The position numbers were made by a program, and so were the translations under genes. A DNA stretch of 64,000 nucleotides from Saccharothrix violaceirubra (GTDB lineage: Bacteria > Actinomycetota > Actinomycetes > Mycobacteriales > Pseudonocardiaceae): NCBI RefSeq assembly GCF_014203755.1, contig NZ_JACHJS010000001.1:5084001-5148000 (forward strand), in the 5' to 3' direction. Below the pieces are notes generated by a model. The model was not told the DNA's origin. It searched no databases and saw only the letters and a program-made list of their open reading frames with translations. Below, in pieces: positions 34,504 to 53,739 of this stretch; position 1 is the stretch's first letter, and each line of letters opens with the position of its first letter.

Positions 34504-35952
34504 CTAGTTGCCGGCGACCGGGCTGAGCTTCGTGTCCCGCTCCTGCCGGGGGGCGGGAGCCTGGGGCGGTACCGGGAGGTTCTTCTTGGCGGGCACGACG
34601 ATCGCCGAGATCACCGCGACCAGCACCGCCAGTGCCGCCGACAGCCAGAACGCCGCCTGGATGCCCTCGACCGAGATGCCGGCACCGGCGCCCGACGTCA
34701 GCGTGGCCACGGTGACCGCCACGCTCAGGCACAGGCCGACACCCAGCTGCCGGTTCGAGTTGTACAGACCGGACGCCAGGCCCATGTGCTGCACGGGCAC
34801 GCCGGACGTGGCCGCGACGGCCGTGCTGATCATCATGACCGTGATGCCCAGGCCCAGCAGGACACCACCCGGCAGCACGTTCACCAGGAACCCGCCGTCG
34901 GTGGGCGCCAGCGCCAGGTAGGCCGAGCCGGCGATGAGGAACAGCGCGCCGAACGTCAGCAGCGGCCGGGCGCCGTGCTTCGCGGTCGCCTTGGCCACCG
35001 GGAGCGAGGCCAGCACGACCACCAGCGCCTGCGGGAAGAACGCCAGGCCGGTGATGATCGCCGAGAAGCCGAGCACGTGCTGCAGGTACAGCGTCACGAA
35101 GAACGTCGAGATCGACATGACGCCGCCGGACAGGAACGCGACCAGGTTGCCGCCGGTCACGCCCCGGTTGCGGAAGACCGACAGCGGCACCAGCGGCGCC
35201 GACACCTTGGTCTGCACGAACAGGAACACCAGCAGCAGGACGCCGCCGCCGATCAGCGGGGTCAGCACGCTGGAGTCGCCCCACCCGAGGTCGGACGCGA
35301 GCGTCAACGCGTACGCCAGCGAGCACATGCTCGCGGTGACCAGGATCGCGCCCGGGATGTCGATCTTCACCTTGCGCGTCCGCGAGCGGTCGTCGTCGAG
35401 CCGGATCGCGGCCCGGACGACCATGTAGATGCCGACCGGGATGTTGACCAGCATGACCGCGCGCCAGCCGAAGACCTCGGTCAGCACGCCGCCGGCCAGC
35501 ACGCCGCCGGCGAAGCCCACCGAGGACACGGCGCCGAACACGCCCATGGCCTTGGCGCGCTCGGGACCCTCGGGGTACCCGGCGCCGATCATGGCGAGCA
35601 CGGCCGGTGCGACCGCCGCGGCCGACAGGCCCTGCAACGCCCGCGAGATGATCAGCACGATCGGCGTGGTGGCCACGCCGCCGAGCACGGACGCGGCCGT
35701 GAAGATCGCGAGACCCCACACGAACATGCGCTTGCGCCCGATGATGTCGCCGACGCGCCCGCCCAGCAGCAGGAAGCCGCCGTAGAACAACGCGTAGGCG
35801 CCGACCACCCACGGCAGCGCGCCCGAGGTGAACGAGAGGTCGGTCTTGATCCACGGGAGGGCCACGTTGACGATGGCGAAGTCGAGCGTGAGCATGAACT
35901 GCGCCAGGCAGAGCAGGAGCAGCGGAGGCCGCTTCCTCTCCTGAGTGCTCAT
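34504..35952 (-). CDS. DHA2-family (EmrB/QacA-like) MFS exporter
   Basis: 482 residues, 14 hydrophobic helices. DHA2 signatures include LDFAIVNVALPWI in helix 1, GGRVGDIIGRKRMF after helix 2 and the motif C-like GPAVLAMIGAGYPEGPERAKAMG region. These proton-driven exporters expel drugs or the cell's own antibiotic. It diverges from the CGNR regulator gene and is expected to export the cluster product. Start ATG 35952. Confidence 0.9.
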   Translation of the reverse strand: MSTQERKRPPLLLLCLAQFMLTLDFAIVNVALPWIKTDLSFTSGALPWVVGAYALFYGGFLLLGGRVGDIIGRKRMFVWGLAIFTAASVLGGVATTPIVLIISRALQGLSAAAVAPAVLAMIGAGYPEGPERAKAMGVFGAVSSVGFAGGVLAGGVLTEVFGWRAVMLVNIPVGIYMVVRAAIRLDDDRSRTRKVKIDIPGAILVTASMCSLAYALTLASDLGWGDSSVLTPLIGGGVLLLVFLFVQTKVSAPLVPLSVFRNRGVTGGNLVAFLSGGVMSISTFFVTLYLQHVLGFSAIITGLAFFPQALVVVLASLPVAKATAKHGARPLLTFGALFLIAGSAYLALAPTDGGFLVNVLPGGVLLGLGITVMMISTAVAATSGVPVQHMGLASGLYNSNRQLGVGLCLSVAVTVATLTSGAGAGISVEGIQAAFWLSAALAVLVAVISAIVVPAKKNLPVPPQAPAPRQERDTKLSPVAGN

Positions 35953-37037: not shown

Positions 37038-38645
37038 TCACGCACCCGCCCGCAGGCGTTCGCGAAGGACGAATTTCTGGATTTTCCCGGACGGCGTCCG
37101 GGGCAGTTCCGGCAGGAATTCGAGCCGTTCCGGCCAGTAGTGCTTGACCATGCCGAGGCCGTCGAGGTGGTGGCGCACGTCGGCGAGCGTGAGCGGCACG
37201 CCGCCGGTCACCAGCACGGCGCACGCGCGCTCGCCGAGCCGGTCGTCGGGGTAGCCCACCACGGCCACGTCCCGGACCGCCTCGTGCCGCAGCAACGCGG
37301 CCTCGACCTCGATCGCCGGGATGTTCTCCGCGCCGCGCATGATCAGGTCCTTCACCCGGCCGGTGATCCGGATGCCGCCGTGGCCGTCGTCGCGGGCCAG
37401 GTCGCCGGTGTCGAACCAGCCGTCGGGGGTGACGCACGCGGCGTACACCTGGGGCCTGCGGTAGTAGCCCAGGCACTGCGCGGACCCGCGGACCTGGAGC
37501 AGGCCGGGTCTCCCGCCGGTCGCGGGCGTGCCCGTGTCGCGGTCGACGACGCGGACCTCCATGCCGGGCACGGCCGTGCCGTCGCTCTCGGCCGCGCGCA
37601 TGGCCGGGTCCTCGGGGCGGGTGATCGTGACGCAGCCGTTCTCGGTCATGCCCCACAACGCGTACAGCCGGCAGCCCAGGACGTCGCGACAGCGCTCGAC
37701 GAGCAGCGGCGGGATCGGTGCGCTGCCCGTGGCGAACGTGTGCAACGCGGACAGGTCGCGTGGCGCGTCGGCCTGGCGCGCGATGAGGTCGGACAGGAAC
37801 GTGGGAGCGCCCATGAAGAACGTGACCCGCCGCTTCTCCAGGATCTCCTGCATCAGCGCCGCGTCCCAGTGGTCGACGTGCACCGACGTGGCGCCCAGCA
37901 GCAGCGGCATCACCAGGTTCCACGTGTAGCCGGCCTGGTGCGTGGTCGGGGAGCCCATCGCGGTGACCTCGTCGCCGGACAGGTGCAGCACGTCGGCCTG
38001 CGCGCGGTTCATCGAGTACAGGGTGTTGTGGCTGTGCACGACCCCCTTCGGCTCGCCGGTCGTGCCGGACGTGAACATGACCTGGGCGACGTCGTCCGGA
38101 CCGGCCTCGACTGATCCGTCCAAAGAGGACTCCGGAGCCAGCAGTTCCGCCTCGAAGTCGAGCGAGCCGTCGGCACCGCCGCCGAGCAGCACACGGTGCC
38201 GCAACGTCGGCACGGTCTCGGCGACCCGCGCGCTCATCGCCGCGTAGTCGAAGCCCCGGAACGTCGCGGCGCCGACGTAGACCGGGCTCGCGGTCAACCG
38301 GGTGGCGAACTCGACCTCGCGCCGGCGCATGATCGGCACGACCGGTCCGGCGACCGCGCCGATCCGGGCGCACGCCAGGATCGTGGCGACGAGCTGCCAC
38401 GTGTTGGGGAGCTGGAGCGTCACCACGTCGCCGTGCCGCACGCCGAGCCGGTGCAGGTTGCCCGCGATCCGCTCGACCTTCGCGGTCAGCTCGCGGTAGG
38501 TCAGCGCCACCGGGCCGTGACCACCGTCAGCGTCTTCCTGGTAGCACACCACTGCGGTCTTGTCGGGGGTCGCGGCGGTCGCCCGCCGCAGGTCGTCCAG
38601 GATGGTGCCGTCCCGCCACCACCCGCGTAACCGGTAGTCGTTCAC
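37038..38645 (-). CDS. Acyl/aryl-CoA or AMP ligase (cyclohexanecarboxylate-CoA ligase-like)
   Basis: 535 residues, ANL superfamily: MFTSGTTGEPKGVVHSHNT, LWGMTENGCV, DGWFDTGDLARDD and RTPSGKIQKFVLRE. It resembles AliA-type acyl-CoA ligases. In nataxazole biosynthesis a ligase of this kind works with the amidohydrolase on the 3-hydroxyanthranilate carboxylate, which makes it a candidate for the second activation step. It is the last gene of the LysW operon; GTG 38645 overlaps the transketolase stop by four bases. Confidence 0.8.
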   Translation of the reverse strand: MNDYRLRGWWRDGTILDDLRRATAATPDKTAVVCYQEDADGGHGPVALTYRELTAKVERIAGNLHRLGVRHGDVVTLQLPNTWQLVATILACARIGAVAGPVVPIMRRREVEFATRLTASPVYVGAATFRGFDYAAMSARVAETVPTLRHRVLLGGGADGSLDFEAELLAPESSLDGSVEAGPDDVAQVMFTSGTTGEPKGVVHSHNTLYSMNRAQADVLHLSGDEVTAMGSPTTHQAGYTWNLVMPLLLGATSVHVDHWDAALMQEILEKRRVTFFMGAPTFLSDLIARQADAPRDLSALHTFATGSAPIPPLLVERCRDVLGCRLYALWGMTENGCVTITRPEDPAMRAAESDGTAVPGMEVRVVDRDTGTPATGGRPGLLQVRGSAQCLGYYRRPQVYAACVTPDGWFDTGDLARDDGHGGIRITGRVKDLIMRGAENIPAIEVEAALLRHEAVRDVAVVGYPDDRLGERACAVLVTGGVPLTLADVRHHLDGLGMVKHYWPERLEFLPELPRTPSGKIQKFVLRERLRAGA

Positions 38646-39592
38646 CGGATCTTTCCTCTCATGCTCCGCTTGGCCCGCTCGGCGATCGCGGCGGCGGTCA
38701 CGCCCGCGCGGTCGAGCAGGAAGCGCTGGGAACCCGACACGCCGACGAACTCGTCGGGCAGCGCCAACCGGTGCACGCGCACCGGCATCAGCTCGGTGAG
38801 CGCCTCGGCCACCGCCGAGCCGAAGCCACCGGCGGCCCAGTGCTCCTCGACGGTGACGACGGCGCCGGTGAAGCCCGCCGCGGCGGCCAGCGTCGCGGTG
38901 TCCAGCGGCTTGACCGTGTGCACGTGCAGCACGGTCGCCTCGACGCCCTCGGCCGCGAGCAGGTCGGCGGCCTCGATCGCGGACAGCACGGGGTACGCAC
39001 CGCACGCGGCGAGCACGACGTCCGTGCCCTGGCGCAGCACCTGGGCCTCGCCGAGCCGCACGGGCGGGCCGGCCGGCAGGTCCGGCGTGGCGTTGCGGCC
39101 CAGCCGCAGGTACACCGGTCCGGGCAGCGACAAAGCCTGGCGCAGCAGGCTTTCCGTGGTCGCCGCGTCGGCGGCGACCACCACGGTCATGTTCGGCAGC
39201 ACGCGCATCGCCGCCAGGTCCTCCAACGCGTGGTGCGTGGGACCGAGGTGGCCCGCGGACACCCCGGAGTGGGTGGCGGCGATGCGCACGGGCAGGTTGT
39301 TGTAGGCGATGTCGATCTTGACGGCCTCGATCGCCCGCGAGGCCGCGAACGCGGCCATCGTGTTGACGAACGGGACGCGCCCCTCCTTGGCCAACCCGGC
39401 GGCGGCGCCCATCACCGTGTGCTCGGCGATGCCGATGTTGACGTAACGCCGCGCCGCCGCGCCGAAGTCGACGCCGGCGAACAGGCCGGTGTCGGTGTCC
39501 AGGCAGATCGCGCGCTCGTCGTCGGCGAGCACCTCCACCAGGACGTCGCGGTAGACCTCCCGCGACGAGCGGACCTTGACGGGTGCGGTCAC
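38642..39592 (-). CDS. Transketolase, C-terminal subunit
   Basis: 316 residues covering the pyrimidine-binding and C-terminal domains of a split transketolase (NIGIAEHTVMGAAAGLA, THSGVSAGHLGPTHHALEDLA, VVTVEEHWAAGGFGSAVAEAL). Together with the overlapping N-terminal subunit it transfers a two-carbon ketol unit. Two roles fit: making erythrose 4-phosphate for the cluster DAHP synthase, or adding a C2 unit to a carrier-bound glutamate semialdehyde as in DADH biosynthesis. The gene order (directly after LysY) favours the second. Confidence 0.88.
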   Translation of the reverse strand: MTAPVKVRSSREVYRDVLVEVLADDERAICLDTDTGLFAGVDFGAAARRYVNIGIAEHTVMGAAAGLAKEGRVPFVNTMAAFAASRAIEAVKIDIAYNNLPVRIAATHSGVSAGHLGPTHHALEDLAAMRVLPNMTVVVAADAATTESLLRQALSLPGPVYLRLGRNATPDLPAGPPVRLGEAQVLRQGTDVVLAACGAYPVLSAIEAADLLAAEGVEATVLHVHTVKPLDTATLAAAAGFTGAVVTVEEHWAAGGFGSAVAEALTELMPVRVHRLALPDEFVGVSGSQRFLLDRAGVTAAAIAERAKRSMRGKIR

Positions 39593-40464
39593 GACGACCG
39601 TCCCTCGCGCAACGCCGCGCGGGCCAGCCGGTGCGCCCGGCCGCCGAGCTTGGCGTAGTGGCTGCGGATCTGGTTCTCCACCATGGGCAGGCCCTTGCCC
39701 TTGACCGTGCGGGCGAGCACGACCGTCGGACGACCGTTCTCGGGCTCGGTGGTCAGCGCGTCGGTGAGCGCGTCGACGTCGTGACCGTCCACTTCGAACA
39801 CCCGCCAGCCGAACGCCCGCCACCGGTCGGCCAGCGGCTCCAGGTCGTTGACCTCGTGCGTGCCGCCGGTGATCTGCAGGCCGTTGCGGTCGACCACGGC
39901 GACCAGGTTGTCCAGCCGCTGCGCCGCCGCGACCGACGCCGACTCCCACACCGAGCCCTCCTGGAGCTCGCCGTCGCCCATGATCACGAACGTGCGGCGG
40001 TCGGACTCGTCGAGCCGGGCGGCCAGCGCGTACCCGATGCCCAGGGCCAGGCCGTGGCCCAGCGACCCGGTCGGCATCTCGACACCGGGCACGGCCGTGT
40101 TCGGGTGCGCCATCAGCGGGCTGCCGGGCGTGCCGTACCCGGCGAGGCGCTCGGCCGGGAAGAACCCGGCCTCGGCCAGCGTCGCGTACAGCGCGATCCC
40201 GCCGTGCCCCTTGCTGAGCAGCAGCACGTCGCGGTCCGGCGAGGCCGGGAACCGCGGGTCGACCAGCATCACCCGGAAGTACAGGGTGGCCAGGATCTCG
40301 ACGAGCGACATCGACCCGCCGACGTGCCCGCCCTCGGGACCCGCGCACATGTCGACGACGTGTTCGCGGATACGTGCGGCGATCTCGGCCAGGTCGACCC
40401 CGGCCGCGGTGTCCACCGACACCGCCGCCACCGTGCTCGGCGGCGCCAACGTGCTGCTGCTCAT
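39589..40464 (-). CDS. Transketolase, N-terminal (TPP-binding) subunit
   Basis: 291 residues with the thiamine diphosphate motif GDGELQEGSVWESASVAAAQRLDNLVAVVDRNG reading GDG ... N, and N-terminal AGPEGGHVGGSMS and LLSKGHGG. It overlaps the C-terminal subunit gene by four bases and follows LysY after 21 bp, so both subunits are made together as part of the carrier-protein pathway. Confidence 0.88.
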   Translation of the reverse strand: MSSSTLAPPSTVAAVSVDTAAGVDLAEIAARIREHVVDMCAGPEGGHVGGSMSLVEILATLYFRVMLVDPRFPASPDRDVLLLSKGHGGIALYATLAEAGFFPAERLAGYGTPGSPLMAHPNTAVPGVEMPTGSLGHGLALGIGYALAARLDESDRRTFVIMGDGELQEGSVWESASVAAAQRLDNLVAVVDRNGLQITGGTHEVNDLEPLADRWRAFGWRVFEVDGHDVDALTDALTTEPENGRPTVVLARTVKGKGLPMVENQIRSHYAKLGGRAHRLARAALREGRSS

Positions 40465-40485
40465 GCCTCTTCCCTTCCCCAGCGG

Positions 40486-41511
40486 TCAGTTCGGGTGCAG
40501 ACCGGTGAACTCGAGCCCGGCCCGCTCCGACAGGCCGTAGCGCACGTTCAGACACTGCACGGCGTTGCCGGCGCCGCCCTTGACGAGGTTGTCCAGCGCC
40601 GAGATCACGGTGACCTGCGGCGAGCCGGCCTCGAGCGCGAAGCCGACGTCGCAGAAGTTGGACCCGGACAGGATCTTGGCGTCCGGGAACCGGTGCAGGC
40701 CCCGCCGGTGCGCCACCACGCGGACGAACGGCTCGTCGCCGTACGCCGCCCGGTAGGCGGACCGGATGTCGCGCTCGTCCACGTCCGGCGCGAGGTGCGC
40801 CCGGCTGACGAGCTGCACGCCGCGCACCGCCTCGACGCCCGTGGCCGTCATGCGCACCGGCAGACCCGTGGCCTGGGAGATCTCGGCCTCGTGCCGGTGC
40901 CTGGTCGGCGCGAACACCCGCAGGGCGCCGCTGCGCTCGGCGTGCAGGTTCTCCGAGCCGGCCTTGGCGCCCGAGCCGCTGGAGCCGGTGCGCGCGTCCA
41001 CGGTGATCTCGCCGCGGATCAGCCCGGCGTGCGCGAGCGGGGTCAGCGCGAGGATGCCCGCGCTGGCCATGCAGCCCGGCACGCTGATCCGGTCGGCCGT
41101 GCGCAGCGCCTCGCGGTGCAACTCGGGCAGGCCGGTGACGAACGACTCGATCAGGTCGGGCGCCGTGTGCGGTGTGCCGTAGTAGTCCTCGTAGGCGGCG
41201 GTCGACGCGAGCCGGAAGTCGCCGGACAGGTCGATCACGGTCCGGGCCAGGCCCAGGAACTCCGTCATCCGCGCCATGGTCTCGCGGTGCGGCGTCGCCA
41301 GGAAGATCGCGTCGTAGTGGTCGAGTTCGTCCTCGGCGCTGAACCTCAGCGTGGTGCGGCTGCGCAGGTTCGGGTGCACGCCGTCGATCTGGCGGCCCTG
41401 GAGGCTGCGCGAGGTGGCCGCGGCCAGCTCGACGTCCGGGTGGGACACGAGCAGGCGGAGCAGTTCGCCGCCGATGTAGCCGGCGGCACCGACGACCGCG
41501 ACCCGGATCAT
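40486..41511 (-). CDS. lysY: LysY/ArgC-like reductase acting on a LysW-bound acyl phosphate
   Basis: 341 residues. GAAGYIGGELLRLL is the NADP fold and SVPGCMASAGILALTPL carries the catalytic cysteine; TGSSGSGAKAGSENLHAE and GSNFCDVGF follow. ArgC/LysY enzymes reduce an acyl phosphate to a semialdehyde. Beside LysW and LysX the substrate should be LysW-gamma-glutamyl (or aminoadipyl) phosphate. Its start overlaps the LysX stop by four bases. Confidence 0.9.
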   Translation of the reverse strand: MIRVAVVGAAGYIGGELLRLLVSHPDVELAAATSRSLQGRQIDGVHPNLRSRTTLRFSAEDELDHYDAIFLATPHRETMARMTEFLGLARTVIDLSGDFRLASTAAYEDYYGTPHTAPDLIESFVTGLPELHREALRTADRISVPGCMASAGILALTPLAHAGLIRGEITVDARTGSSGSGAKAGSENLHAERSGALRVFAPTRHRHEAEISQATGLPVRMTATGVEAVRGVQLVSRAHLAPDVDERDIRSAYRAAYGDEPFVRVVAHRRGLHRFPDAKILSGSNFCDVGFALEAGSPQVTVISALDNLVKGGAGNAVQCLNVRYGLSERAGLEFTGLHPN

Positions 41512-42374
41512 GCGGCGGCCCTGCTCAGCAGCAGGTCCACGATGCGGTCCGCGACGTCCAGACCGGGGTGGGCGCTCTGGAAGCCCTTGAACTCCACCCG
41601 GTCGTTGACTTCGAGCACGGTCAGGCGTCCTTCCTCTGCCTCGATGAGGTCGACCCCGGCGATGTCCGCGCCCACGGCGGCGGCGGCGCGGACCGCGAGA
41701 TCGGTGATCTCGTCCGTGAGCGGGCACGGCTCGCTGGCCGCGCCGCGCGCCACGTTGGTGCGCCACTCGTCGCCCCGCCGGTGCGTCGCGCCGACGACCT
41801 CGCCGCCGACGACGATCACGCGGATGTCGCGGTCGGCCCGACCCACCAGTTCCTGGAGGTAGACCACGTGCGACTGGGGCGAGGGCAGCGCCTCGACGTG
41901 TTCGAGCACGGCCGCGGCCGAGTCGCGGTCGGCGACCTTGGTGACCAGCCGGCCCCAGGACCCGACCAGCGGCTTGATCACCGCCGGGTAGCCGATCTCC
42001 TCCAACGCCTTGAGCGCGGCCTCGGAGGTGAGCGCCAGCGTGGTCGCCGGTGTCGGCAGCCCGGCCGCGAGCAGGGCCGCCGACGTGTGCCACTTGTCGC
42101 CGCTGACGTGGGTCGCGGCGGCCGAGTTCAGCACGGTCGCCCCGGCCGCTTCGAGGGCACTGGCCGCGTAGAGCGCGCGGTAGTGCCCGACCTCGCGGTT
42201 GACGACGAACTCCGGACCCGCCCAGGCGGCGCCGCCGGTGACGGACAACGTCCTGGGGTCCAGGTGCTCGAATGCGACGCCGCGCCGGTCGAGCGCGGCC
42301 ATGATGGCTTTCTCCTCGACGCGCACCCGGGATGCCAGAACGCCCAGGCGCGGACCAACCGGATTCATCCTCAT
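41508..42374 (-). CDS. lysX: LysX/ArgX-like RimK-family ligase loading LysW
   Basis: 288 residues of the RimK ATP-grasp fold: VNREVGHYRALYAASALEAAG, YPAVIKPLVGSWGRLVTKV, RDIRVIVVGGEVVGATHR and LTVLEVNDRVEFKGFQ. LysX-type enzymes join the alpha-amino group of glutamate or aminoadipate to the C-terminal Glu of LysW. Whether this copy prefers glutamate is not clear from the sequence. Start at 42374; ATG 42368 is an alternative. Confidence 0.9.
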   Translation of the reverse strand: MRMNPVGPRLGVLASRVRVEEKAIMAALDRRGVAFEHLDPRTLSVTGGAAWAGPEFVVNREVGHYRALYAASALEAAGATVLNSAAATHVSGDKWHTSAALLAAGLPTPATTLALTSEAALKALEEIGYPAVIKPLVGSWGRLVTKVADRDSAAAVLEHVEALPSPQSHVVYLQELVGRADRDIRVIVVGGEVVGATHRRGDEWRTNVARGAASEPCPLTDEITDLAVRAAAAVGADIAGVDLIEAEEGRLTVLEVNDRVEFKGFQSAHPGLDVADRIVDLLLSRAAA

Positions 42375-42397
42375 ACGTCCCTAGATGAGGGGGCGGA

Positions 42398-42580
42398 CTA
42401 CTCGCCCCAGTCCTCTTCGACCTCCGGCGCGCGCACCAGGGTCGGCGGATCGACGGATTCGATCTCCAATTCGCTGCGGCACTCGACGCATTCGACGATC
42501 TCGCTCACGCGGGCGTCGGCGTCGAGGCCGACGTCGGCCGCGCACTCGGGGCACTCGGCGGCGAGCACGGTCTTCGACAT
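42398..42580 (-). CDS. lysW: LysW-type amino-group carrier protein
   Basis: 60 residues. A zinc ribbon of two CxxC pairs (CPEC at 10-13, CVEC about 31-34) and the C-terminal EDWGE are the hallmarks of LysW/AmCP. The terminal glutamate is the attachment point for the amino acid substrate. Outside primary lysine/arginine synthesis, such carriers serve secondary pathways, for example that to 2,6-diamino-5,7-dihydroxyheptanoate (vazabitide A). It heads the minus-strand operon 42580 to 37038. Confidence 0.93.
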   Translation of the reverse strand: MSKTVLAAECPECAADVGLDADARVSEIVECVECRSELEIESVDPPTLVRAPEVEEDWGE

Positions 42581-42821
42581 GTCATTCCCTACTTCCTGGC
42601 GGTGCGTGATCGGGGTAGGACCAAGTTATGTCCGGAACGTGAAAATATCCAATAACCGCCCGTTGTCGTCTCACACCGGACGACTTATGAGCAGGCACGA
42701 TAATCACGCGGCTACACATGTATAAGCAGGGCTGCGGCTGCGGAGCGTAAAAATCCCGGCATCCGATCCTATGCTCGTCCGGAGGCTTTCCGACTCTTTC
42801 CGCCGCCCACGAGGAGTGCAG
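42581..42821. promoter_or_regulatory. Divergent promoter region, LysW operon / encapsulin operon
   Basis: 240 bp, locally AT-richer than the surroundings (for example around 42640-42730). On the minus strand TTGGAT and TAACTT, 18 bp apart, are a weak promoter candidate for LysW. An inverted repeat GTCGTC / GACGAC lies at about 42666-42686. The 29-bp element found elsewhere in the cluster is not evident here. Confidence 0.4.
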
Positions 42822-43679
42822 ATGACTTCGACCCTGACCGTCGCGGACCCCGCCCGTACGCCCGGCGCGGAGTTCGCCGCGATCGCCGGTGCCGCGTCGG
42901 ACGCCGGGGACCTGGTGGTCCCGTTCTCCACCCACCTGCCCGCGGCGTTCCCGCTGTTCGCGTCCCGCCCGCGCTACCCCGTCCGGCACCTGCTCAAGAC
43001 CGCGCGGGTGGCCGACGGGCCGGCGACGTTCGTGCACGAGCCGCCGCGCGGCGCGCTCGCCACCGCGGGCACCTCGTACGCGAGCACGCCCGAGGCCGCG
43101 TTCGCGCCCCGGCTCGCCGAGACGCCGCTGACCGACCTGGTCGCCCGCGTCCCCGCGCCCGAGGGCGTGCTCGACCACCCGGAGCTGCTCGCCCAGTACG
43201 TCGACTTCCGCGTGCTGGTCCGGCTGTCCGTGGTGGAGAACCAGTCCCTGCTCACCGGCACGGCCGACGGCGCGATCACCGGTCTGCTGAACCTGCCGGG
43301 CACCCGGCACACCGCGTCGCCGCACGGCCTGGAGCAGGCCGTCACCCGGGCCGCCGCCGAGGTCGAGGAGACCGGCGGGTCGTGCGACGGGATCGTGGCG
43401 CACCCGTTCACCTACTGGGAGATGGTGCGCACCGGTCTGCTGGGCCGCCTCCAGGTCGCGGGCATCACCGTGTCGCGCACCCGGATGATCCCGCGCGACT
43501 CGTTGCTGCTGGGCGACTTCCGGGCCGCGTTCACGCTGCTGCTGCCCGACGTCGCGCACATCGCGCTGCGCCGGGAGTCCGACGGCGACGTGTTCGAGGC
43601 GTCCACCCGGATCGGCCTGGCCGTACACCTGCCGCAACACCTCATGACGCTGTCGTGGCAGGCCGACGATGGCGCCTGA
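42822..43679 (+). CDS. HK97-fold encapsulin shell protein (biosynthetic-cluster, Family 3-like)
   Basis: 285 residues from ATG 42822 (ribosome site GAGGAG). The sequence follows the HK97 major capsid/encapsulin pattern: an N-terminal helix, FVHEPPRGALATAGTSYAST for the E-loop region, DHPELLAQYVDFRVLVRLSVVENQSLLTGTADGAITGLLNLPGT for the P-domain spine helix and loop, HPFTYWEMVRTG, then LLLGDFRAAFTLLL and a closing ASTRIGLAVHLPQHLMTLSW strand. No protease, portal, terminase or tail genes are near, so it is not a prophage. Encapsulins form self-assembling protein shells; those proposed as Family 3 sit in natural-product clusters. The sulfotransferase gene starts 11 bp before its stop. Confidence 0.8.
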   Translation: MTSTLTVADPARTPGAEFAAIAGAASDAGDLVVPFSTHLPAAFPLFASRPRYPVRHLLKTARVADGPATFVHEPPRGALATAGTSYASTPEAAFAPRLAETPLTDLVARVPAPEGVLDHPELLAQYVDFRVLVRLSVVENQSLLTGTADGAITGLLNLPGTRHTASPHGLEQAVTRAAAEVEETGGSCDGIVAHPFTYWEMVRTGLLGRLQVAGITVSRTRMIPRDSLLLGDFRAAFTLLLPDVAHIALRRESDGDVFEASTRIGLAVHLPQHLMTLSWQADDGA

Positions 43680-44592
43680 GACCCGCGTCCTCTACATCAC
43701 GGGCTGGATGCGCAGCGGCAGCACGCTGCTGGGCAACGTGCTCAACGAACTGCCCGGCGTGCTGCACGTCGGCGAGCTGCACTACCTGTGGCGCAACGGC
43801 GTCCTCAAAGAGGGCACCAACACGCTGTGCGGCTGCGGCCAGGACCTGACGCAGTGCGAGCTGTGGTCGGCTGTCCTGTACGCCGACGGCTCCGCCGACC
43901 CGTCGGCCGCGCGCCGGATGGTCGCGCAGCAGCGGCACTACCTGCGCACCCGGCACACCGCCGCCCGCCTGGCCGACTGGCGACGCGGCGGGAGGCCGCC
44001 GCGCGGGGTCGTCGAGGCGACCGGGCGCACGGCCGGGATCTACCGTGGTCTGGCGGGCAACGGCGCCGGCCGACTGGTCGTCGACGGGTCGAAGTACCCC
44101 GGCGAGGCCGCCGCCCTGCTCGGCCGCGAGGACCTGGACGTGCGCGTGCTGCACATGGTCCGCGACCCGCGGCCGACCGCGCTGTCCTACAAGCGCGCCA
44201 AGGACTACATCGACCCGATGAGCCCGGCGGGCAGCAGTGCCTACTGGACCGCGTTCAACGTCGCGTCCGAACTGCTCGGCCGCGCCGCGCCCGACCGCTA
44301 CCTGCGGGTGCGGCACGAGGACCTGTGCGCCGACCCGCGCGGCGTGCTGACCGAGGTCATGGAGTTCGCGGGACTCGACGGGGAGCCGCCCGTCGACGCC
44401 GACGGTCGGGTGACCCTCGGCGTGAACCACACCGTCACCGGCAACCCGGACCGGCTCGCCCGGGGTGCCACCACGATCCGCGCCGACGACCGGTGGCGCT
44501 CCGCACTGAGCACACGGGAGATCGTCGCCGCGTCCGTGCCCGCGCTGCCGCTGCTCGCGCGCTACGGATACCGGCATCTGCCGATCGGATGA
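43669..44592 (+). CDS. PAPS-dependent sulfotransferase
   Basis: 307 residues. The 5'-phosphosulfate loop is YITGWMRSGSTLLGNVLNEL (residues about 8-27) and the 3'-phosphate motif is MVRDPRPTALSYKRA; EDLCADPRGVL and a C-terminal RWRSAL segment complete the fold. It should transfer sulfate from PAPS to a hydroxyl or amine of the cluster product. It overlaps the encapsulin gene by 11 bp, implying coupled expression and perhaps encapsulation. A full PAPS-making operon lies at 49.7-53.2 kb. Confidence 0.88.
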   Translation: MAPETRVLYITGWMRSGSTLLGNVLNELPGVLHVGELHYLWRNGVLKEGTNTLCGCGQDLTQCELWSAVLYADGSADPSAARRMVAQQRHYLRTRHTAARLADWRRGGRPPRGVVEATGRTAGIYRGLAGNGAGRLVVDGSKYPGEAAALLGREDLDVRVLHMVRDPRPTALSYKRAKDYIDPMSPAGSSAYWTAFNVASELLGRAAPDRYLRVRHEDLCADPRGVLTEVMEFAGLDGEPPVDADGRVTLGVNHTVTGNPDRLARGATTIRADDRWRSALSTREIVAASVPALPLLARYGYRHLPIG

Positions 44593-44604
44593 AGAGGATG
44601 GGAC

Positions 44605-45375
44605 ATGGACCTCGGGATCAAGGGGCGGGTGGCCCTGGTCGCGGCGTCGAGCAGCGGACTCGGCCTCGCCGTCGCCAAGGCGTTCGCCGCGGAGGGCGCG
44701 CACGTGTCGATCTGCGGGCGCGACCCGGCACGGCTGGCCAAGGCGCACGCCGAGGTGAACGCGGCCGGACCCGGTGACGTGCTCAGCGTCCCCGTGGACA
44801 TCCGCGACGAGCACGCGGCGGCGGCCTGGGTGCGGCACACCGCCGACGTGTTCGGCGGACTCGACATCGTGGTCACCAACACCGGCGGCGTGCCGTTCGG
44901 CCCGGTCGACAGCTTCGAGCCCGCCGACTACCGCGAGGCGGTCGACGGGAACCTGCTGCCGCACGTGTCGATCACCCTGGCCGCGCTGCCGATCCTCAAG
45001 GCGGCCGGCTGGGGCCGCATCGTGATGATCGCGTCCGAGGCGGTCAAGCAGCCCAGCCCGGCCAGCGGCCTGTCGTCGGTGGCCCGGCTGGGGCTGCTCG
45101 GGCACATGAAGGGCCTCGTGCACGCGTTGGGCGCCAACGGGGTCACGGTCAACGTGATCGCGCCCGGCTACCACCGCACCCCGATCCTCGACGAGCAGTT
45201 CGGCGACCACGTCGAGGACGAACTCGCCCGCGTGGCGCGCGGCATCCCGCTCGGGCGCATCGGCGACGCCGGGCACTTCGGCGCGCTGGTCGCCATGCTC
45301 TCCGGTGACCAGGCGTCCTACGTCACCGGCACGGTTCTCGTCGCCGACGGCGGCAACACCCGCGGCATCGGCTGA
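44605..45375 (+). CDS. Atypical short-chain dehydrogenase/reductase
   Basis: 256 residues with an SDR fold: cofactor loop AASSSGLG in place of TGxxxGxG, TNTGGVPFG, VIAPGYHRT and VADGGNTRGIG. The catalytic YxxxK is not present; the segment reads PASGLSSVARLGLLG, with Ser and Arg at the equivalent places. Such divergent SDRs exist, but activity must be tested. Between the sulfotransferase and the LysZ-LysK gene, it could reduce the ketone produced by the transketolase on the carrier protein. Confidence 0.8.
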   Translation: MDLGIKGRVALVAASSSGLGLAVAKAFAAEGAHVSICGRDPARLAKAHAEVNAAGPGDVLSVPVDIRDEHAAAAWVRHTADVFGGLDIVVTNTGGVPFGPVDSFEPADYREAVDGNLLPHVSITLAALPILKAAGWGRIVMIASEAVKQPSPASGLSSVARLGLLGHMKGLVHALGANGVTVNVIAPGYHRTPILDEQFGDHVEDELARVARGIPLGRIGDAGHFGALVAMLSGDQASYVTGTVLVADGGNTRGIG

Positions 45376-45390
45376 ACAGGAGACGCAAGG

Positions 45391-47274
45391 ATGTCCGTAC
45401 TCGGGCACGTCGCCGGCACACGGAAGTCGGCGCTGTACGTTGTGAAGATCGGAAGCGCGTCGCTGCGCCACGACACCGTCTTCGACGAACTGGCGGGCAT
45501 CCCGCTGCGCGGCGCGCGCGTGCTGCTGGTGGCGGGCGGCGCGGCCGGGATCGTCGAGCACTACGAGAGCATCGGCCGGGACATCAGGTTCCTGCGGCTG
45601 CGCAACGGCGACGACGTGCGCTACTGCCCGCCGGAGGAGATGGCGCACATCGTCGAGGCGTACCGGCGGGTCACGCTGCCGCGCGTGCGGCAGGCGCTGG
45701 CCACGCGCGGGATCATCGCCTACACGGCACCGGCGGCGGACGACGCCCTGGTGTGCGGCACGGCCAACCCGCCGATCCGCGCGGTCAGCGACGGCCGGGT
45801 GACCGTGGTGCGCGACCACCGCGCGGGCGTGGTGTCCGGTGTGGACGTCGAGCGCATCCTGTCCCTGCTGGAGGCTTTCGACGTGGTGTGCCTGTCGCCG
45901 CCGGTGTCCGACAGCGCGGGCGGGTCGGCGTTGAACGTGGACGCGGACGTGCTGGCCGCGGAGCTGGCCAACGCCCTGGACGCCGACCACCTGCGGCTGG
46001 TGACCGGGACGCCGGGACTGCTGGCCGACCCGACCGACCCGACCTCGCGGCAGGAGCACGTGCTGCCGGGCGAGGGCGGGCAGTACGCGTCCGGGCGGAT
46101 GAAGCAGAAGGTCCGCGCGGCCGAGATCGCGCTGACCGGCGCGGCGGACGTGGCGATCACCGGGCCGCACGTGCTGGCACCCGCGTCCGGGACGCGGTTC
46201 TGGCGGGCCACGCCGCCGGCCGACGACCTGAACCTGCTGACGCGGACGGTGGAGCTGTCGTCGGTGTCGGCCGACGAGCGCGAACTCGCCGACTACCTGG
46301 TCGACTGGTGTACCGAGCACGGCGTGGACTCCGGCATCGACCAGGCCGGGAACTTCGTGGCCGTGCGCGGGTCCGGCGCGCGCCGACTGCTGCTGCTGGG
46401 CCACCTGGACACCGTGGCCCACCGGTGGCCGGCGCGGTGGTCGAACGACGAGGTGCTGCACGGACGCGGGACCGTGGACGCGAAGGGCAGCCTGGCCGCG
46501 TTCCTGGAGACCCTCGTCGAGGCGGACGTCCCGGCGGGCACGCAGTTGCGCGTGGTCGGTGCGGTCGAGGAGGAGATGACCTCGGCCGGTGCGTTCTTCG
46601 TCCGCGACAACTACCCGGCCGACGCGGTGATCGTCGGCGAGCCGTCCGGCGCCGGTGCGTTGACGATCAGCTACCGGGGTCTGCTCAAGATCCGGCTGAC
46701 CGTGCGCACGCCGGTCGGCCACACGGCCGGGCACGGTGTCGTGACGGCCGCGGACCAGTTGGTGGACGTGGTGGCCCGGTTGCGCGCGGCGATCGCGGAG
46801 TACTCGCCCGAGGCGATGATGGCCGTGCTGGGCCTGGACGCGCGCAACGGCGGCGACGTGCAGTTGGGCGAGGCGGTGTTCGACGTGCGGGTGCCGCACA
46901 CGACCGACGTGCACGCGTTGGCGGCGTTGGTGGAACGGGTGGCCGAGCCGGTGCGGACGACCGTGCTGCGGGCGACGCCGGGCCACGCCACGCCGCGGAC
47001 CAGTCCGCTGGTGCGGGCGTTCTCGCCCGCTTTCCGGGCGGCCGGGGTCACGCCCCGGTACCTGGCCAAGAAGGGCAGCAGCGACATGAACACGTTGGCC
47101 ACGACGTGGCGCGACGTGCCCATGGTGGCCTACGGCCCGGGTGACGCTTCCCTGGACCACACCCCCCAGGAGCACATCACCGCCGCGGAGTTCCGCCTGT
47201 CCCGCAAGGTCCTGTCCGCCGCCGTGACCCACTGGCTGACCCGCACCGACCACCCCACCACCACCCCCGCCTAA
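45391..47274 (+). CDS. LysZ-LysK fusion: amino-acid kinase plus M20 carrier-releasing peptidase
   Basis: 627 residues. Residues 1 to about 270 are an amino-acid kinase of the LysZ/ArgB type (KIGSASLRHD, VLLVAGGAAGIVEHY, GSALNVDADVLAAELA, SGRMKQKVRAAEIAL). Residues about 285-627 are an M20 metallopeptidase of the LysK type with every metal ligand visible: H and D in LLLGHLDTVA, D in GTVDAKGS, EE in GAVEEEM, E in IVGEPSG, H in DHTPQEH. The first activates the LysW-bound side-chain carboxylate, the last frees the finished amino acid from LysW. These are normally separate proteins, so the first and last processing steps are joined here. Confidence 0.88.
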   Translation: MSVLGHVAGTRKSALYVVKIGSASLRHDTVFDELAGIPLRGARVLLVAGGAAGIVEHYESIGRDIRFLRLRNGDDVRYCPPEEMAHIVEAYRRVTLPRVRQALATRGIIAYTAPAADDALVCGTANPPIRAVSDGRVTVVRDHRAGVVSGVDVERILSLLEAFDVVCLSPPVSDSAGGSALNVDADVLAAELANALDADHLRLVTGTPGLLADPTDPTSRQEHVLPGEGGQYASGRMKQKVRAAEIALTGAADVAITGPHVLAPASGTRFWRATPPADDLNLLTRTVELSSVSADERELADYLVDWCTEHGVDSGIDQAGNFVAVRGSGARRLLLLGHLDTVAHRWPARWSNDEVLHGRGTVDAKGSLAAFLETLVEADVPAGTQLRVVGAVEEEMTSAGAFFVRDNYPADAVIVGEPSGAGALTISYRGLLKIRLTVRTPVGHTAGHGVVTAADQLVDVVARLRAAIAEYSPEAMMAVLGLDARNGGDVQLGEAVFDVRVPHTTDVHALAALVERVAEPVRTTVLRATPGHATPRTSPLVRAFSPAFRAAGVTPRYLAKKGSSDMNTLATTWRDVPMVAYGPGDASLDHTPQEHITAAEFRLSRKVLSAAVTHWLTRTDHPTTTPA

Positions 47275-47283
47275 TCCCTCCCC

Positions 47284-47309: not shown

Positions 47310-47316
47310 CCACCCT

Positions 47317-47468: not shown

Positions 47469-47471
47469 GGG

Positions 47472-48773: not shown

Positions 48774-48788
48774 GGTCATCCTCCCCGG

Positions 48789-49661
48789 TCATTCGGCGAA
48801 CGGGTAGCCGTGCAAAGCGTTCTGGAGCGCGCGCTTGGCCACGCGCGTGAAGCCCGGCGACGCCGCACCCGGCGAGATCGCCATCGTCACCGGCACCGGG
48901 CCGGGCGGCTCGGGCAGCTCGCGCTCGGTGCGCGGCAGGCCCCACAGCTCGTCGCCGTTGGCGACCAGGCACGCCACGCCGAGACCGGCCTTGGCCGCCG
49001 CCCGCAGGCCGATCAGCTCCGCACCCTCGTAGCCGACACGCCAGGGCATGTCGGAGGCGTTGAACGCGTCGACGATCCGGCCGCGCAGGCTGCACGGCTC
49101 GGTGAACAGGGTCAACGGCAGCGCGGCGCCGTCGGAGTGCACGGGCCGGCCGAACCAGTCCATCCGCAGCCGCCCCAGTTCGTGGCTGGTGCCCGCGGTG
49201 AGCTGCGGCCGGGGTTGCAGCAGCAACGCCAGGTCGAGCCGACCGGCCGCCACCTGCGACTCCAAGGACTCGCTCAGGCCCGTGCGCACGCTCACCTGCG
49301 CGTGCGGCATGCCCTTGGCCAGCAACGCCAGGATCTCCGGCAACGCCTCGGCCAACTGGTCGCCGATCCCGATCGCCAGCCGCACCTTGCCCGACTGCGG
49401 CACGAAGCGGTCGACGGCCTCGTCGTTGAGCGCGACGATCCGCCGGGCGTAGCCGAGCAGCTCCTCGCCCTGCGCGCTGAGCTTCAGCTCGCGCCCGGTC
49501 GACAGGAAGATCGGCCCCTTGACCAGGCTGCCGAGCTGCCGGATCTGCTGGCTCACGGCCGGCTGCGTCACGTGCAACACCTCGGCCGCGCGGCGGAAAC
49601 CGCCGACGTCGACGACGGTGACCAACGCCCGCAGGCGGTTGATCTGCAAATCGTGGTACAT
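48789..49661 (-). CDS. LysR-family regulator
   Basis: 290 residues: an N-terminal helix-turn-helix (INRLRALVTVVDVGGFRRAAEVLHVTQPAVSQQIRQL) and a periplasmic-binding-like effector domain. It follows CysQ after 70 bp in the same direction. LysR proteins such as CysB and Cbl control sulfate assimilation, so it may tune PAPS supply to product synthesis; that link is inference. Confidence 0.9.
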   Translation of the reverse strand: MYHDLQINRLRALVTVVDVGGFRRAAEVLHVTQPAVSQQIRQLGSLVKGPIFLSTGRELKLSAQGEELLGYARRIVALNDEAVDRFVPQSGKVRLAIGIGDQLAEALPEILALLAKGMPHAQVSVRTGLSESLESQVAAGRLDLALLLQPRPQLTAGTSHELGRLRMDWFGRPVHSDGAALPLTLFTEPCSLRGRIVDAFNASDMPWRVGYEGAELIGLRAAAKAGLGVACLVANGDELWGLPRTERELPEPPGPVPVTMAISPGAASPGFTRVAKRALQNALHGYPFAE

Positions 49662-49731: not shown

Positions 49732-50466
49732 TCAGGTCGCCCTGATCGCCGCCAGCACCCTCGGCGCCGCGTCCGCGCGGCAGATGAGCAGGTCGGGCAG
49801 GTACGGGTGGGGCCGGTTGTAGACCAGGGGCGAACCATCCACACGGGACGCGTGCAGTCCGGCGGCGAGCGCGACGCCGACCGGTGCGGCCGAGTCCCAC
49901 TCCCACTGCCCACCCGCGTGGACGAACGCCTCGGCCTCGCCCCGCAGCACGGCCGTCGCCTTGGCGCCCGCCGAACCCATGGGCGTCAGCACCGCGCCGA
50001 GGTCGTCGGCGACGGCGGCGGCGAACGACGGCGGCCTGCTGTCGCTGACCAGGATTCGCGGTACCGCTGGAGCGGGCGCTGACTTCCGGACGACGTCGTC
50101 GCTGGCGTGCACCAGGTTCAAGCCCGGCACGGCGACGGCGGCGGCCATGATGCCACGTCCGCGTTGCCACAGCGCCACGTGCACGGCCCAGTCGACCCGT
50201 CCGGGCCGGCCGTACTCGCGCGTGCCGTCGAGCGGGTCGACTATCCACACGCGACTCGCGCCCAGCCGGGCCGGGTCGTCCGCGGCTTCCTCGGACAGCA
50301 CGGCGTCGTCCGGTCGACACGCGGCCAGCTCCGCGAGCAGGAACGCGTTGGACTCGGCGTCGCCGCGCCGCATGAGGTCGTCGCCGCCGGACTCGCGGAT
50401 CTTGAGCAGGAGGTCGCCCGCCTCGCGCGCCAACCGCGCCGCGAGCCGGGCGTCGGCGTCGCTCAT
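49732..50466 (-). CDS. cysQ: CysQ-like 3'(2'),5'-bisphosphate nucleotidase
   Basis: 244 residues of the inositol-monophosphatase-like fold: AVLSEEAADDPARLGASRVWIVDPLDGTREYG holds the metal-binding E and WIVDPLDGT aspartates, and GGQWEWDSAAPVGVALAAG closes the site. CysQ hydrolyses PAP, the inhibitory by-product of sulfotransferases, to AMP. Its presence beside the PAPS-making genes argues for heavy sulfotransferase use. Start overlaps the CysN-CysC stop by four bases. Confidence 0.88.
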   Translation of the reverse strand: MSDADARLAARLAREAGDLLLKIRESGGDDLMRRGDAESNAFLLAELAACRPDDAVLSEEAADDPARLGASRVWIVDPLDGTREYGRPGRVDWAVHVALWQRGRGIMAAAVAVPGLNLVHASDDVVRKSAPAPAVPRILVSDSRPPSFAAAVADDLGAVLTPMGSAGAKATAVLRGEAEAFVHAGGQWEWDSAAPVGVALAAGLHASRVDGSPLVYNRPHPYLPDLLICRADAAPRVLAAIRAT

Positions 50467-52286
50467 CGGTCCAGCAGCGCGAGCACGGCGGCGGCACCGT
50501 CCGCCGGGTCGCCGTCGGCGGGGCGCAGCACCAGCTCCGGGTCGACGGGCGCCTCGTACGGGTCGTCGACCCCGGTGAAGCCGCGGATCTCCCCGGCCCG
50601 CGCCCGCGCGTACATGCCCTTGGGGTCACGTCGCTCGCAGATCTCCAACGGCGTGTCCACGAACACCTCGACGAACTCCAGCCCGGCCGCCTCGTGCGCG
50701 GCGCGCACCGCGTCGCGGTCGGCCTGGTACGGGCTGATCAGGGACACGATCGCGACCGTGCCCGCGTCGGCGAACAGCCGCGCGACGGCACCCGTGCGAC
50801 GCACGTTCTCCGCGCGGTCGTCGGCGGCGAACCCGAGGTCGGCGTTGAGGTCGTGGCGCAGGTTGTCGCCGTCGAGCAGGTACGCGGGCCGGCCGGACGC
50901 GACCAGGCGGCGTTCGAGTTCGGCGGCCACGGTCGACTTGCCCGAGCCGGACAGGCCGGTGAGCCACACGGTCAGGCCGCGCGTCGGCCGCTGCTCGCGG
51001 GTGACGGTCGGCGCGTGCCACACGACGTTGGACGAGGACACGCGCGGGCCGGTGATCATGCCCGCCGCGACCGTGTCGTTGGTGGCCTCGTCGACCAGGA
51101 CGAAGCTGCCCGTGCCCCGGTTGCGCCGGTAGGAGTCGAACAGCAGCGGCGTCTGGGTGTGCAGGCTGATGCGGCCGATCTCGTTGAGCGACAAGCCCGT
51201 CGCGGTCTCGTCGCGGTGCAGCGTGTTGACGTCGAGCCGGTAGTCCAGCGTGCGCACGGACGCCTTCACGAGCTGCGACGTGTGCTTCACCAGGTACTTC
51301 GCCCCCGGCTTCAACGTCGACCGCTCGGTCAGCCAGCAGACCATGGCGTCCACGTCCTGGCCCACGTGCGGCCGGTTGTTGGGCCGGCACAGCAGGTCGC
51401 CCCGGCTCACGTCCACGTGGTCGGCCAGCTCGACGGTCACGGCCTGGGGCGGGAACGCCTCGGCGACCGGCTCGCCGCCGGGTCCCCAGAGCCGCTCGAC
51501 GACCGTGGTGAACCCGGACGGCAGCACCACGACCTCGTCGCCGGGCCGGAACACGCCGCCGGACACCGTGCCCGCGTAGCCCCGGAAGTCCTGGTGCGGC
51601 CGGATCACGTACTGGACGGGCAGCCGCGCGTCGATCAGGTTGTGGTCGGACGCGACGTGCACCTCCTCCAGGTGGTGCAGCAGCGACGTGCCCTCGTACC
51701 AGGGCGCCTCGGTGCCCCGGTTCACCACGTTGTCGCCGTTGAGCGCGGACATCGGCACGAACGACAGGTCGGGCACGTCCAGCCGCATGGCGAACCGGCG
51801 GAACTCCTCGCGGATCTCGTCGTAGCGCTCCTGGGACCAGCCGACCAGGTCCATCTTGTTCACGCACACCACGAAGTGCGGGATGCCGAGCAGGGCGGCG
51901 ATGAACGCGTGCCGCCGGGACTGCTCCAACACGCCCTTGCGCGCGTCGACCAGGATCAGCGCCACGTCGGCGGTGGACGCGCCGGTGACCATGTTGCGCG
52001 TGTACTGGACGTGTCCGGGCGTGTCGGCGATGACGAACTTGCGCCGGGGCGTGGCGAAGTAGCGGTGCGCGACGTCGATGGTGATGCCCTGCTCGCGCTC
52101 GGCGCGCAGGCCGTCGGTGAGCAGCGCCAGGTTCGGCACGTCCTCGCCGCGTTCGCGGCTGGTGCGCTCGATGGCGGCGAGCTGGTCGACGAAGAACGCC
52201 TTGGAGTCGTAGAGCAGTCGGCCGATCAGGGTCGACTTGCCGTCGTCGACGCTGCCCGCGGTCGCGATCCGGAGTAGCGGTCCCAT
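50463..52286 (-). CDS. cysNC: CysN-CysC fusion: ATP sulfurylase GTPase subunit plus APS kinase
   Basis: 607 residues. Residues 1 to about 425 are CysN (P-loop GSVDDGKSTLIGRLL, DTPGHVQYTRNM, NKMDL), the GTPase that drives CysD. Residues about 435-607 are APS kinase (P-loop GLSGSGKSTVAAELE, DGDNLRHDLNADLGF, FVDTPLEICERRDPKGMYARARAG), making PAPS. The fused architecture is common in actinobacteria and proteobacteria. The CysD stop and this ATG share bases (TGATG). Confidence 0.93.
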   Translation of the reverse strand: MGPLLRIATAGSVDDGKSTLIGRLLYDSKAFFVDQLAAIERTSRERGEDVPNLALLTDGLRAEREQGITIDVAHRYFATPRRKFVIADTPGHVQYTRNMVTGASTADVALILVDARKGVLEQSRRHAFIAALLGIPHFVVCVNKMDLVGWSQERYDEIREEFRRFAMRLDVPDLSFVPMSALNGDNVVNRGTEAPWYEGTSLLHHLEEVHVASDHNLIDARLPVQYVIRPHQDFRGYAGTVSGGVFRPGDEVVVLPSGFTTVVERLWGPGGEPVAEAFPPQAVTVELADHVDVSRGDLLCRPNNRPHVGQDVDAMVCWLTERSTLKPGAKYLVKHTSQLVKASVRTLDYRLDVNTLHRDETATGLSLNEIGRISLHTQTPLLFDSYRRNRGTGSFVLVDEATNDTVAAGMITGPRVSSSNVVWHAPTVTREQRPTRGLTVWLTGLSGSGKSTVAAELERRLVASGRPAYLLDGDNLRHDLNADLGFAADDRAENVRRTGAVARLFADAGTVAIVSLISPYQADRDAVRAAHEAAGLEFVEVFVDTPLEICERRDPKGMYARARAGEIRGFTGVDDPYEAPVDPELVLRPADGDPADGAAAVLALLDR

Positions 52287-53197
52287 CAGAAGTACCCCTC
52301 CTTCTTCCGGTCTTCCATGCCCGCCTCGGAGATCCGGTCGTCGGCGCGGGTGGCGCCGCGTTCGGTGACGCGGGTGGCCGCGACCTCCGCGACCACCTCC
52401 TCCGGGGTGGTGGCGTCGGACTCGACGCAGCCGGTGCACGTGGCGTCGCCGACGGTGCGGAACCGCACCAGCTGCTCGACCGGCTCCTCGCCGTCGAGCA
52501 GCGTGACGAACCTGGTGTGCGCCAACAACATCCCGTCGCGGTGCACCACCGGCCGGCGGTGCGCGTAGTAGATGGACGGCAGCTCGATCGCCTCGTCCCG
52601 GATGTACTGCCAGATGTCCAGCTCGGTCCAGTTGGACAGCGGGAACACCCGGATGTGCTCGCCCTTGCGGTGCCGCCCGTTGTAGAGGTTCCACAGCTCG
52701 GGGCGCTGGTTGCGCGGGTCCCACTGGCCGTACTCGTCGCGGAAGCTGAAGACCCGCTCCTTGGCGCGGGCCTTCTCCTCGTCGCGACGGGCGCCGCCGA
52801 ACACGGCCGTGAAGCCGTTCTCGGTGATGCCGCGCAGCAAAGCCGCGGTCTGCAACCGGTTGCGGCTCGCGCGCGGACCCGTCTCCTCGACGACCCGGCC
52901 CGCGTCGATGTCGTCCTGCACGCTGCTCACCACCAGCCGCAGCCCGAAGCGCTCGACGGTGGCGTCCCGGTAGGCGATGACCTCGTCGAAGTTGTGCCCG
53001 GTGTCGACGTGCATCACCGGGAACGGCAGCGGTGCGGGCCAGAACGCCTTGGCGGCCAGGTGCAGCATCACCACCGAGTCCTTGCCGCCGGAGAACAGCA
53101 GCACGGGTTTCTCGAACGTGGCGGCGACCTCGCGGAAGATGTGCACCGACTCGGCTTCCAGTGCCCGCAGGTGGGAAAGCTCGTACGTGGTGGTCAC
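52286..53197 (-). CDS. cysD: CysD, sulfate adenylyltransferase small subunit
   Basis: 303 residues from GTG 53197 (GGAG upstream). The PP-loop SGGKDSVVMLHLA, VDTGHNFDEVI, GGARRDEEKARAKERVFSFRDEYGQWDPRNQRPE and the FPLSNWTELDIWQYI block are diagnostic. With CysN it makes APS from sulfate and ATP. No APS/PAPS reductase or sulfite reductase is adjacent, so the operon makes PAPS for sulfation rather than cysteine. Confidence 0.94.
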   Translation of the reverse strand: MTTTYELSHLRALEAESVHIFREVAATFEKPVLLFSGGKDSVVMLHLAAKAFWPAPLPFPVMHVDTGHNFDEVIAYRDATVERFGLRLVVSSVQDDIDAGRVVEETGPRASRNRLQTAALLRGITENGFTAVFGGARRDEEKARAKERVFSFRDEYGQWDPRNQRPELWNLYNGRHRKGEHIRVFPLSNWTELDIWQYIRDEAIELPSIYYAHRRPVVHRDGMLLAHTRFVTLLDGEEPVEQLVRFRTVGDATCTGCVESDATTPEEVVAEVAATRVTERGATRADDRISEAGMEDRKKEGYF

Positions 53198-53229
53198 GGG
53201 ATCTCCGTCCCTTCGCAGGTGTTCGCGGA

Positions 53230-53739
53230 TCACGAGCGCCGCTTGGTCCGGCGCCGGCGTGCGCGGTGGCCGCCCGAGGGACGCCGGGGTGCGCGGGTGC
53301 GCAGGGCGAGCCACTCCTGGCCCGCCTCGCACCGGTCCGGTGCGCACGTGGCGTGCCCGCAGTCGGTCACGGGCCGGCCGGCGGCCTCGACCAGCTCGCG
53401 CACCTCGACGGCGAAGTCCGCGGCGGCGGCGTGCCCGGCCAGCCAGGCGAGGTTCACGTCGAGGAACACGGCGAGGTCCTCGACCTCGCCGGTGGCAGGC
53501 CCCACCACACCGCGCTCGCACACGACCAGCGAGCACCAGGAGGCGAGGATGTCGTCGACATCCGCACGCACCCGCGTGGTCCGCGCGTCGTCGTGCCACG
53601 CGCCGCACTCCCGGTGGAGCGCGGGCAGCGAGAGCAGTTCGCGGGCCAGCACCTGCCGGCACTGGCCGCACAGGTGGAATCCGGCCCCGGTCCGGTGCGC
53701 GCAGACCGGCGTTTCGCATGCCTTGTCGGCGTCTCCCAT
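53230..53739 (-). CDS. Cysteine-containing hypothetical protein (OvmZ-like)
   Basis: 169 residues from ATG 53739 (ATG 53742 also possible; GGAGG adjoins). An N-terminal zinc-ribbon-like part (CETPVCAHRTGAGFHLCGQCRQVL), a helical middle (DDILASWCSLVVCERG) and a C-terminal CGHATCAPDRC followed by a very basic tail. It resembles small proteins of the OvmZ type reported next to some Streptomyces antibiotic clusters; similarity is by memory only. It is 32 bp upstream of cysD and probably in its operon. Confidence 0.6.
   Translation of the reverse strand: MGDADKACETPVCAHRTGAGFHLCGQCRQVLARELLSLPALHRECGAWHDDARTTRVRADVDDILASWCSLVVCERGVVGPATGEVEDLAVFLDVNLAWLAGHAAAADFAVEVRELVEAAGRPVTDCGHATCAPDRCEAGQEWLALRTRAPRRPSGGHRARRRRTKRRS

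Follow-up and report, generated by a model that had tools for sequence, protein, structure and literature searches.

Why a gene resembling those of virus capsids should lie among genes for natural-product synthesis, and what its product might hold there, is the question raised by this locus of Saccharothrix violaceirubra. The window analyzed here is a stretch of 64,000 nucleotides (contig NZ_JACHJS010000001.1, positions 5,084,001 to 5,148,000). A sequence-only reading of it had ascribed the encapsulin/HK97 pattern to the 285-aa product of the ORF at 42822-43679, and had taken its gene for that of a Family 3 encapsulin, adjacent to a sulfotransferase gene within a LysW-type cluster. Both claims were borne out. 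The ORF, which has a GAGGAG shortly 5' of its start, scored 329.9 bits against the NCBIfam model NF041188 (encap_f3; curated cut-off 180), and its match to Pfam Phage_capsid was weak (24.4 bits, cut-off 24.2). Structure prediction gives an HK97 fold over the full length of the protein, which excludes the unrelated fold that the reading had allowed for. Since family model, fold and context agree, the assignment of the product to Family 3 (natural product) encapsulins, a virus-derived type already described and little studied, is supported. An alternative in-frame ATG at 42771 would give a protein of 302 aa. The genes of the cluster are the following.

34504..35952, minus strand: MFS exporter (MFS_1 186.6 bits; kept in related loci)
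37038..38645, minus strand: AMP-binding acid ligase (AMP-binding 262.5 bits; nearest curated model cyclohexanecarboxylate-CoA ligase, TIGR03208, 549.5 bits, below its cut-off of 792.3)
38642..39592, minus strand: transketolase, C-terminal subunit (Transket_pyr, Transketolase_C)
39589..40464, minus strand: transketolase, N-terminal subunit (Transketolase_N 157.4 bits)
40486..41511, minus strand: LysY-type semialdehyde dehydrogenase (Semialdhyde_dh domains)
41508..42374, minus strand: LysX-type ATP-grasp ligase (TIGR02144 280.2 bits, cut-off 275.6)
42398..42580, minus strand: LysW-type amino-group carrier protein, C-terminus EDWGE (TIGR01206 54.3 bits, cut-off 53.2; PF21344)
42822..43679, plus strand: Family 3 encapsulin shell protein with HK97 fold, 285 aa (NF041188, Phage_capsid, predicted structure)
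43669..44592, plus strand: sulfotransferase, its start overlapping the shell stop (Sulfotransfer_3 51.7 bits)
44605..45375, plus strand: atypical SDR-fold protein whose Ser-Tyr-Lys positions hold Ser144-Ser157-Arg161 (adh_short_C2 150.4 bits; residues; fold)
45391..47274, plus strand: LysZ-LysK fusion, carrier-linked amino-acid kinase and M20 [LysW]-hydrolase (AA_kinase, Peptidase_M20; TIGR01902 278.6 bits, cut-off 163.1)
48789..49661, minus strand: LysR-type regulator, start uncertain (LysR_substrate and HTH_1 on the ORF 48789-49913; shorter start chosen by composition)
49732..50466, minus strand: CysQ-like inositol-monophosphatase-family protein (Inositol_P 90.2 bits, nothing in NCBIfam at 1e-30; a role as PAP phosphatase is suggested by context only)
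50463..52286, minus strand: CysNC, ATP sulfurylase large subunit fused to APS kinase (NF004035 955.8 bits, cut-off 715)
52286..53233, minus strand: CysD, ATP sulfurylase small subunit (TIGR02039 458.7 bits, cut-off 396.6)

The layout agrees with what the sequence-only reading had noted: the end of the shell gene and the start of the sulfotransferase share 11 bases (43669-43679), and the shell gene diverges from the LysW operon. Homologues of LysW, LysX, LysZ, LysY and LysK are all present together, LysZ and LysK being fused. The carrier, a single copy in the genome, retains the C-terminal Glu that is the predicted tethering site in the LysW-type pathway. CysN and CysD each score over cut-off twice in the genome, once within the cluster and once elsewhere, but the single APS kinase over cut-off is the kinase domain of the cluster's CysNC. 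This fits a supply of PAPS to the sulfotransferase by CysD and CysNC, an arrangement that is not universal across Family 3. A FAD/NAD(P)-binding protein (NAD_binding_9; 47472-48779), with a relative at the end of L007, lies between the LysZ-LysK fusion and the LysR gene. Genes for a DAHP synthase, a chorismate-binding enzyme, an AMP-binding/PCP protein, a KAS III-like protein and a FAD monooxygenase at 26326-34135 possibly form an adjoining second cluster; relatives of this monooxygenase adjoin the MFS gene in L075-L086.

Given the HK97 fold and the Phage_capsid match, the shell gene could be a capsid gene left over from a prophage. The reading had seen no phage gene nearby, and PHROGs indeed assigned none of ten regional proteins, the shell included, to a phage structural family. 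At the sensitivity used, the shell protein matched no phage or plasmid record and its alignment matched no IMG/VR contig; its identity to HK97-type phage major capsid proteins is about 19%, with no phage morphogenesis gene alongside. Moreover, the cluster context is kept in several other genera, so the arrangement is not due to chance. We therefore reject a prophage remnant, to which we give next to no likelihood. Compared with Family 1 and Family 2 encapsulins, the shell protein shows 13-16% identity in the rows compared, its neighbours differ, and it has no known cargo.

Family 3 was defined by Andreas and Giessen in 2021 from 132 systems, near which sulfotransferases, SDRs, PKS/NRPS and amino-group carrier proteins are frequent (PMC8346489). 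These authors proposed that some of the biosynthetic enzymes are cargo, that SDR and sulfotransferase act sequentially, and that reactive aldehyde or ketone intermediates may be sequestered. The only Family 3 cluster studied experimentally at that time was that of chloromyxamide, which contains the C7 residue 6-chloromethyl-5-methoxypipecolic acid (PMC8346489). A review of the same year described the family as still to be characterised (PMC8229669), and we found no later experimental work on it in the openly licensed PMC literature. Since family and neighbours had already been named, the present finding is less new than the sequence-only reading implied: the described systems (PMC8346489, NF041188) share with the present locus the family model, the placement in a cluster, and a sulfotransferase, an SDR and a LysW-like carrier as neighbours, and we found nothing that distinguishes the present shell protein from them. 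Relative to the sections of PMC8346489 consulted, our additions are the PAPS-supply genes, the missing Tyr and Lys of the SDR, and the partner counts given below.

Aiming to learn which neighbours accompany the shell, we retrieved 68 long regions, each with a Family 3 gene, and searched them by tblastn with the cluster proteins as queries. We kept 66 loci; L051 and L097 were dropped as presumed duplicates, since their contigs equal in length those of L002 and L010. The window does not count towards the 66, nor do G171 (a short contig) and G761, which are both over the family cut-off; matches falling short of that cut-off, L037-L047 for instance, were not treated as Family 3. A sulfotransferase was found in 65 of the 66 loci, and an SDR or aldo/keto reductase in all 66. 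LysW and transketolase were found in 30 and 29 loci, respectively, and a DegT aminotransferase in 29 (L053-L062, L064, L072-L089); LysW/transketolase and DegT were mutually exclusive, and seven loci had neither. CysN/CysD occurred in at least 19/66 loci, one of them (L062) by a weak match; since some loci end at contig ends, this and the counts of other distant partners are lower bounds. AcylDH was found in 30/65 loci, with no match in the window. In 20 control stretches of 20 kb, taken at hand-chosen positions from 13 of the same genomes, the sulfotransferase queries gave no match and the reductase queries matched in four.

The partners are not always of the same families: L050 has a Sulfotransfer_5 protein and an aldo/keto reductase, and the partners in L066 and L098 match those of L050 by similarity. 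A second Family 3 shell gene in one genome (L063, on G058 contig 21) has an SDR, no sulfotransferase match, and an adjoining IS1595-type transposase; the same genome has another locus, L062, carrying both partners. Searching 200 genomes of one order with the window SDR, with no more than 13 candidates per genome scored, we found that each of the 24 strongest matches has a Family 3 shell gene at a distance of 5.3 kb or less, and that four of the best 35 are away from any. An SDR match was present within 10 kb in 31 of the 32 shell loci of these genomes, the remaining one being L066 with its aldo/keto reductase. What the analysis shows is the family, the fold, the gene order, the unusual residue triad of the SDR described below, and an almost constant association of the shell with a sulfotransferase and a reductase-family protein. 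These counts indicate that the shell tracks this pair of partners rather than the carrier pathway, although the loci are related by descent and thus are not independent observations. On such genomic grounds, sulfation with the SDR step is favoured as the putatively confined chemistry over the carrier protein or the transketolase product.

Classical SDRs have the catalytic residues Ser-Tyr-x3-Lys. The partner SDR departs from this pattern: Ser157 and Arg161 occupy the classical Tyr and Lys columns in 64/64 partner SDRs (the window and 63 loci), and Ser-Ser-Arg was found in 120/120 database homologues among the matches listed, the query included. For comparison we took 11 other SDRs, of which control stretches and Family 3 loci supplied five each and the window one; ten had both Tyr and Lys and one sequence was incomplete. 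Such conservation, together with a Lys-to-Arg change that recalls halohydrin dehalogenases, raises the idea that the SDR-fold partner is no reductase and instead would displace sulfate inside the shell, with an amine or hydroxyl in vicinal or alpha position closing the ring, by analogy to halide displacement in those enzymes. We consider this very unlikely. The same residues are present in all 15 shell-free homologues (L125-L139) that we hand-picked from SDR matches unlinked to shell genes, and the stretches of about 10 kb around these had no sulfotransferase match. The solved relatives bind NADP(H) (5idy, 5va8, 5vps, and AerF from Microcystis, 6jha/6jhb), and in three loci the SDR is replaced by an aldo/keto reductase whose tetrad is intact by eye. 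The 50 structure matches listed for the SDR include no halohydrin dehalogenase, which excludes nothing. The partner SDR is close in fold and sequence to AerF and to the NADP-bound Burkholderia SDRs (6jhb, 5idy, 5va8, 5vps), and in alignments 5idx and 5vps have the Ser-Ser-Arg site too; to our knowledge, none of these proteins is linked to an encapsulin. Because shell-free homologues carry Ser/Arg and relatives bind NADP(H), the partner represents an older atypical SDR branch put to use by the cluster. Reductase activity of the partner is plausible from these similarities, though not to be assumed.

Our preferred reading, to which we assign a probability of roughly 0.5, is that the shell encloses or docks the sulfotransferase and the SDR, and that a LysW-tethered C7 ketol is reduced, sulfated and cyclised. 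Co-occurrence does not equal encapsulation, however, and we saw no terminal extension on the sulfotransferase or SDR of the window. Candidate loading signals do appear elsewhere in Family 3. In 21 of the 61 SDRs with tails measured, all 21 from DegT-type loci, there is a C-terminal tail of 19-22 residues, which in most has a PHLT variant and a final DTY-like motif; and in four loci of Streptomyces type (L005, L008, L009, L010) a long low-complexity extension at the C-terminus of the sulfotransferase ends in LWPGE or in WPGE plus two residues.

The lack of a tag in the window would also suit a protein that has kept the HK97 fold and encloses no cargo, be it an unfilled shell, an incomplete assembly or a scaffold carrying the pathway enzymes on its outside, and we found no solved Family 3 shell in the PDB. 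Against this, the fold is full length and 56 columns are invariant in the alignment of 52 shell homologues, as expected if assembly is kept; we regard the absence of cargo as rather unlikely. A true shell might instead have the carrier stage as its cargo, either LysW together with its enzymes or the transketolase, and shield the LysW-semialdehyde or the ketol, leaving sulfotransferase and SDR outside. The divergent LysW operon, the presence of LysW and transketolase beside the shell in close to half of the loci, and the sequestration suggested in 2021 (PMC8346489) speak for it. Yet 36/66 loci have no LysW match while 65 have the sulfotransferase, which disfavours confinement of the carrier protein as a general role, and the carrier enzymes of the LysW class had no conserved C-terminal extension among the rows listed in a C-terminal alignment. 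We judge carrier-stage cargo unlikely.

We propose the route to the cyclised product on account of the enzyme set and of the precedent of azinomycin and vazabitide, in which glutamate is extended by two carbons by a transketolase, followed by sulfation and displacement (PMC9570651); assembly, cargo identity, reaction order and the product of the shell cluster are what we infer. The shell protein is a domesticated HK97-type capsid protein, with icosahedral assembly most likely. Glutamate or a homologue would be loaded onto LysW and phosphorylated; reduction would then give the semialdehyde, which would gain two carbons. Together, LysW, LysX, LysZ, LysY and the transketolase would yield a C7 amino acid that is bound to LysW and bears a terminal ketol. 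The SDR/sulfotransferase pair, at a stage confined by the shell, would reduce and then sulfate this ketol with PAPS from CysD, CysNC and the CysQ-like protein. After release by LysK, the freed alpha-amine would displace the sulfate, and six-membered closure would give a hydroxymethyl-hydroxypipecolate-type ring, which the AMP-binding ligase would activate. The nearest model of the ligase and that of a neighbouring acyl-CoA dehydrogenase in L002 (cyclohexanecarboxyl-CoA dehydrogenase), both below cut-off, fit a six-membered ring acid.

In its C7 skeleton the proposed pipecolate would match the 6-chloromethyl-5-methoxypipecolic acid residue of chloromyxamide (PMC8346489). Glutamate activation, two-carbon extension by transketolase and sulfation are common to the azinomycin/vazabitide pathways, vazabitide also using a carrier-protein route; there an aminotransferase acts next, and the sulfate gives way to an aziridine (PMC9570651). 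Unlike these pathways, the present cluster has an encapsulin and an SDR, and no aminotransferase was annotated among the genes scanned within 34504-53233. Azinomycin-type aziridine formation proceeds by sulfate elimination with a ring-forming enzyme of the Vzb10/11 or AziU3/U2 type. Counting against our preferred reading are also the absence of the classical Tyr and Lys from the SDR, the limited number of loci in which CysN/CysD was found, the lack of an AcylDH match in the window, and the sub-cut-off match of the ligase.

Extended to the whole family, Family 3 shells could be sulfation organelles, in which an enclosed sulfotransferase and the SDR lacking Tyr and Lys would add a sulfate and either effect or control its intramolecular displacement, shielding the cell from an alkylating sulfo-intermediate, while the upstream routes (LysW/transketolase or DegT aminotransferase) would be interchangeable. 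We put this forward as a speculative idea that is probably not correct as stated. The comparison narrows the question of Family 3 from some tailoring enzyme to a sulfotransferase and atypical SDR pair, and supplies candidate loading tags in related clusters. The value of the finding lies in this sharpened, testable link of Family 3 shells to sulfation; if the shells do enclose the sulfation step, they would represent a new kind of natural-product reaction chamber and offer a way towards cyclic amino acids as building blocks.
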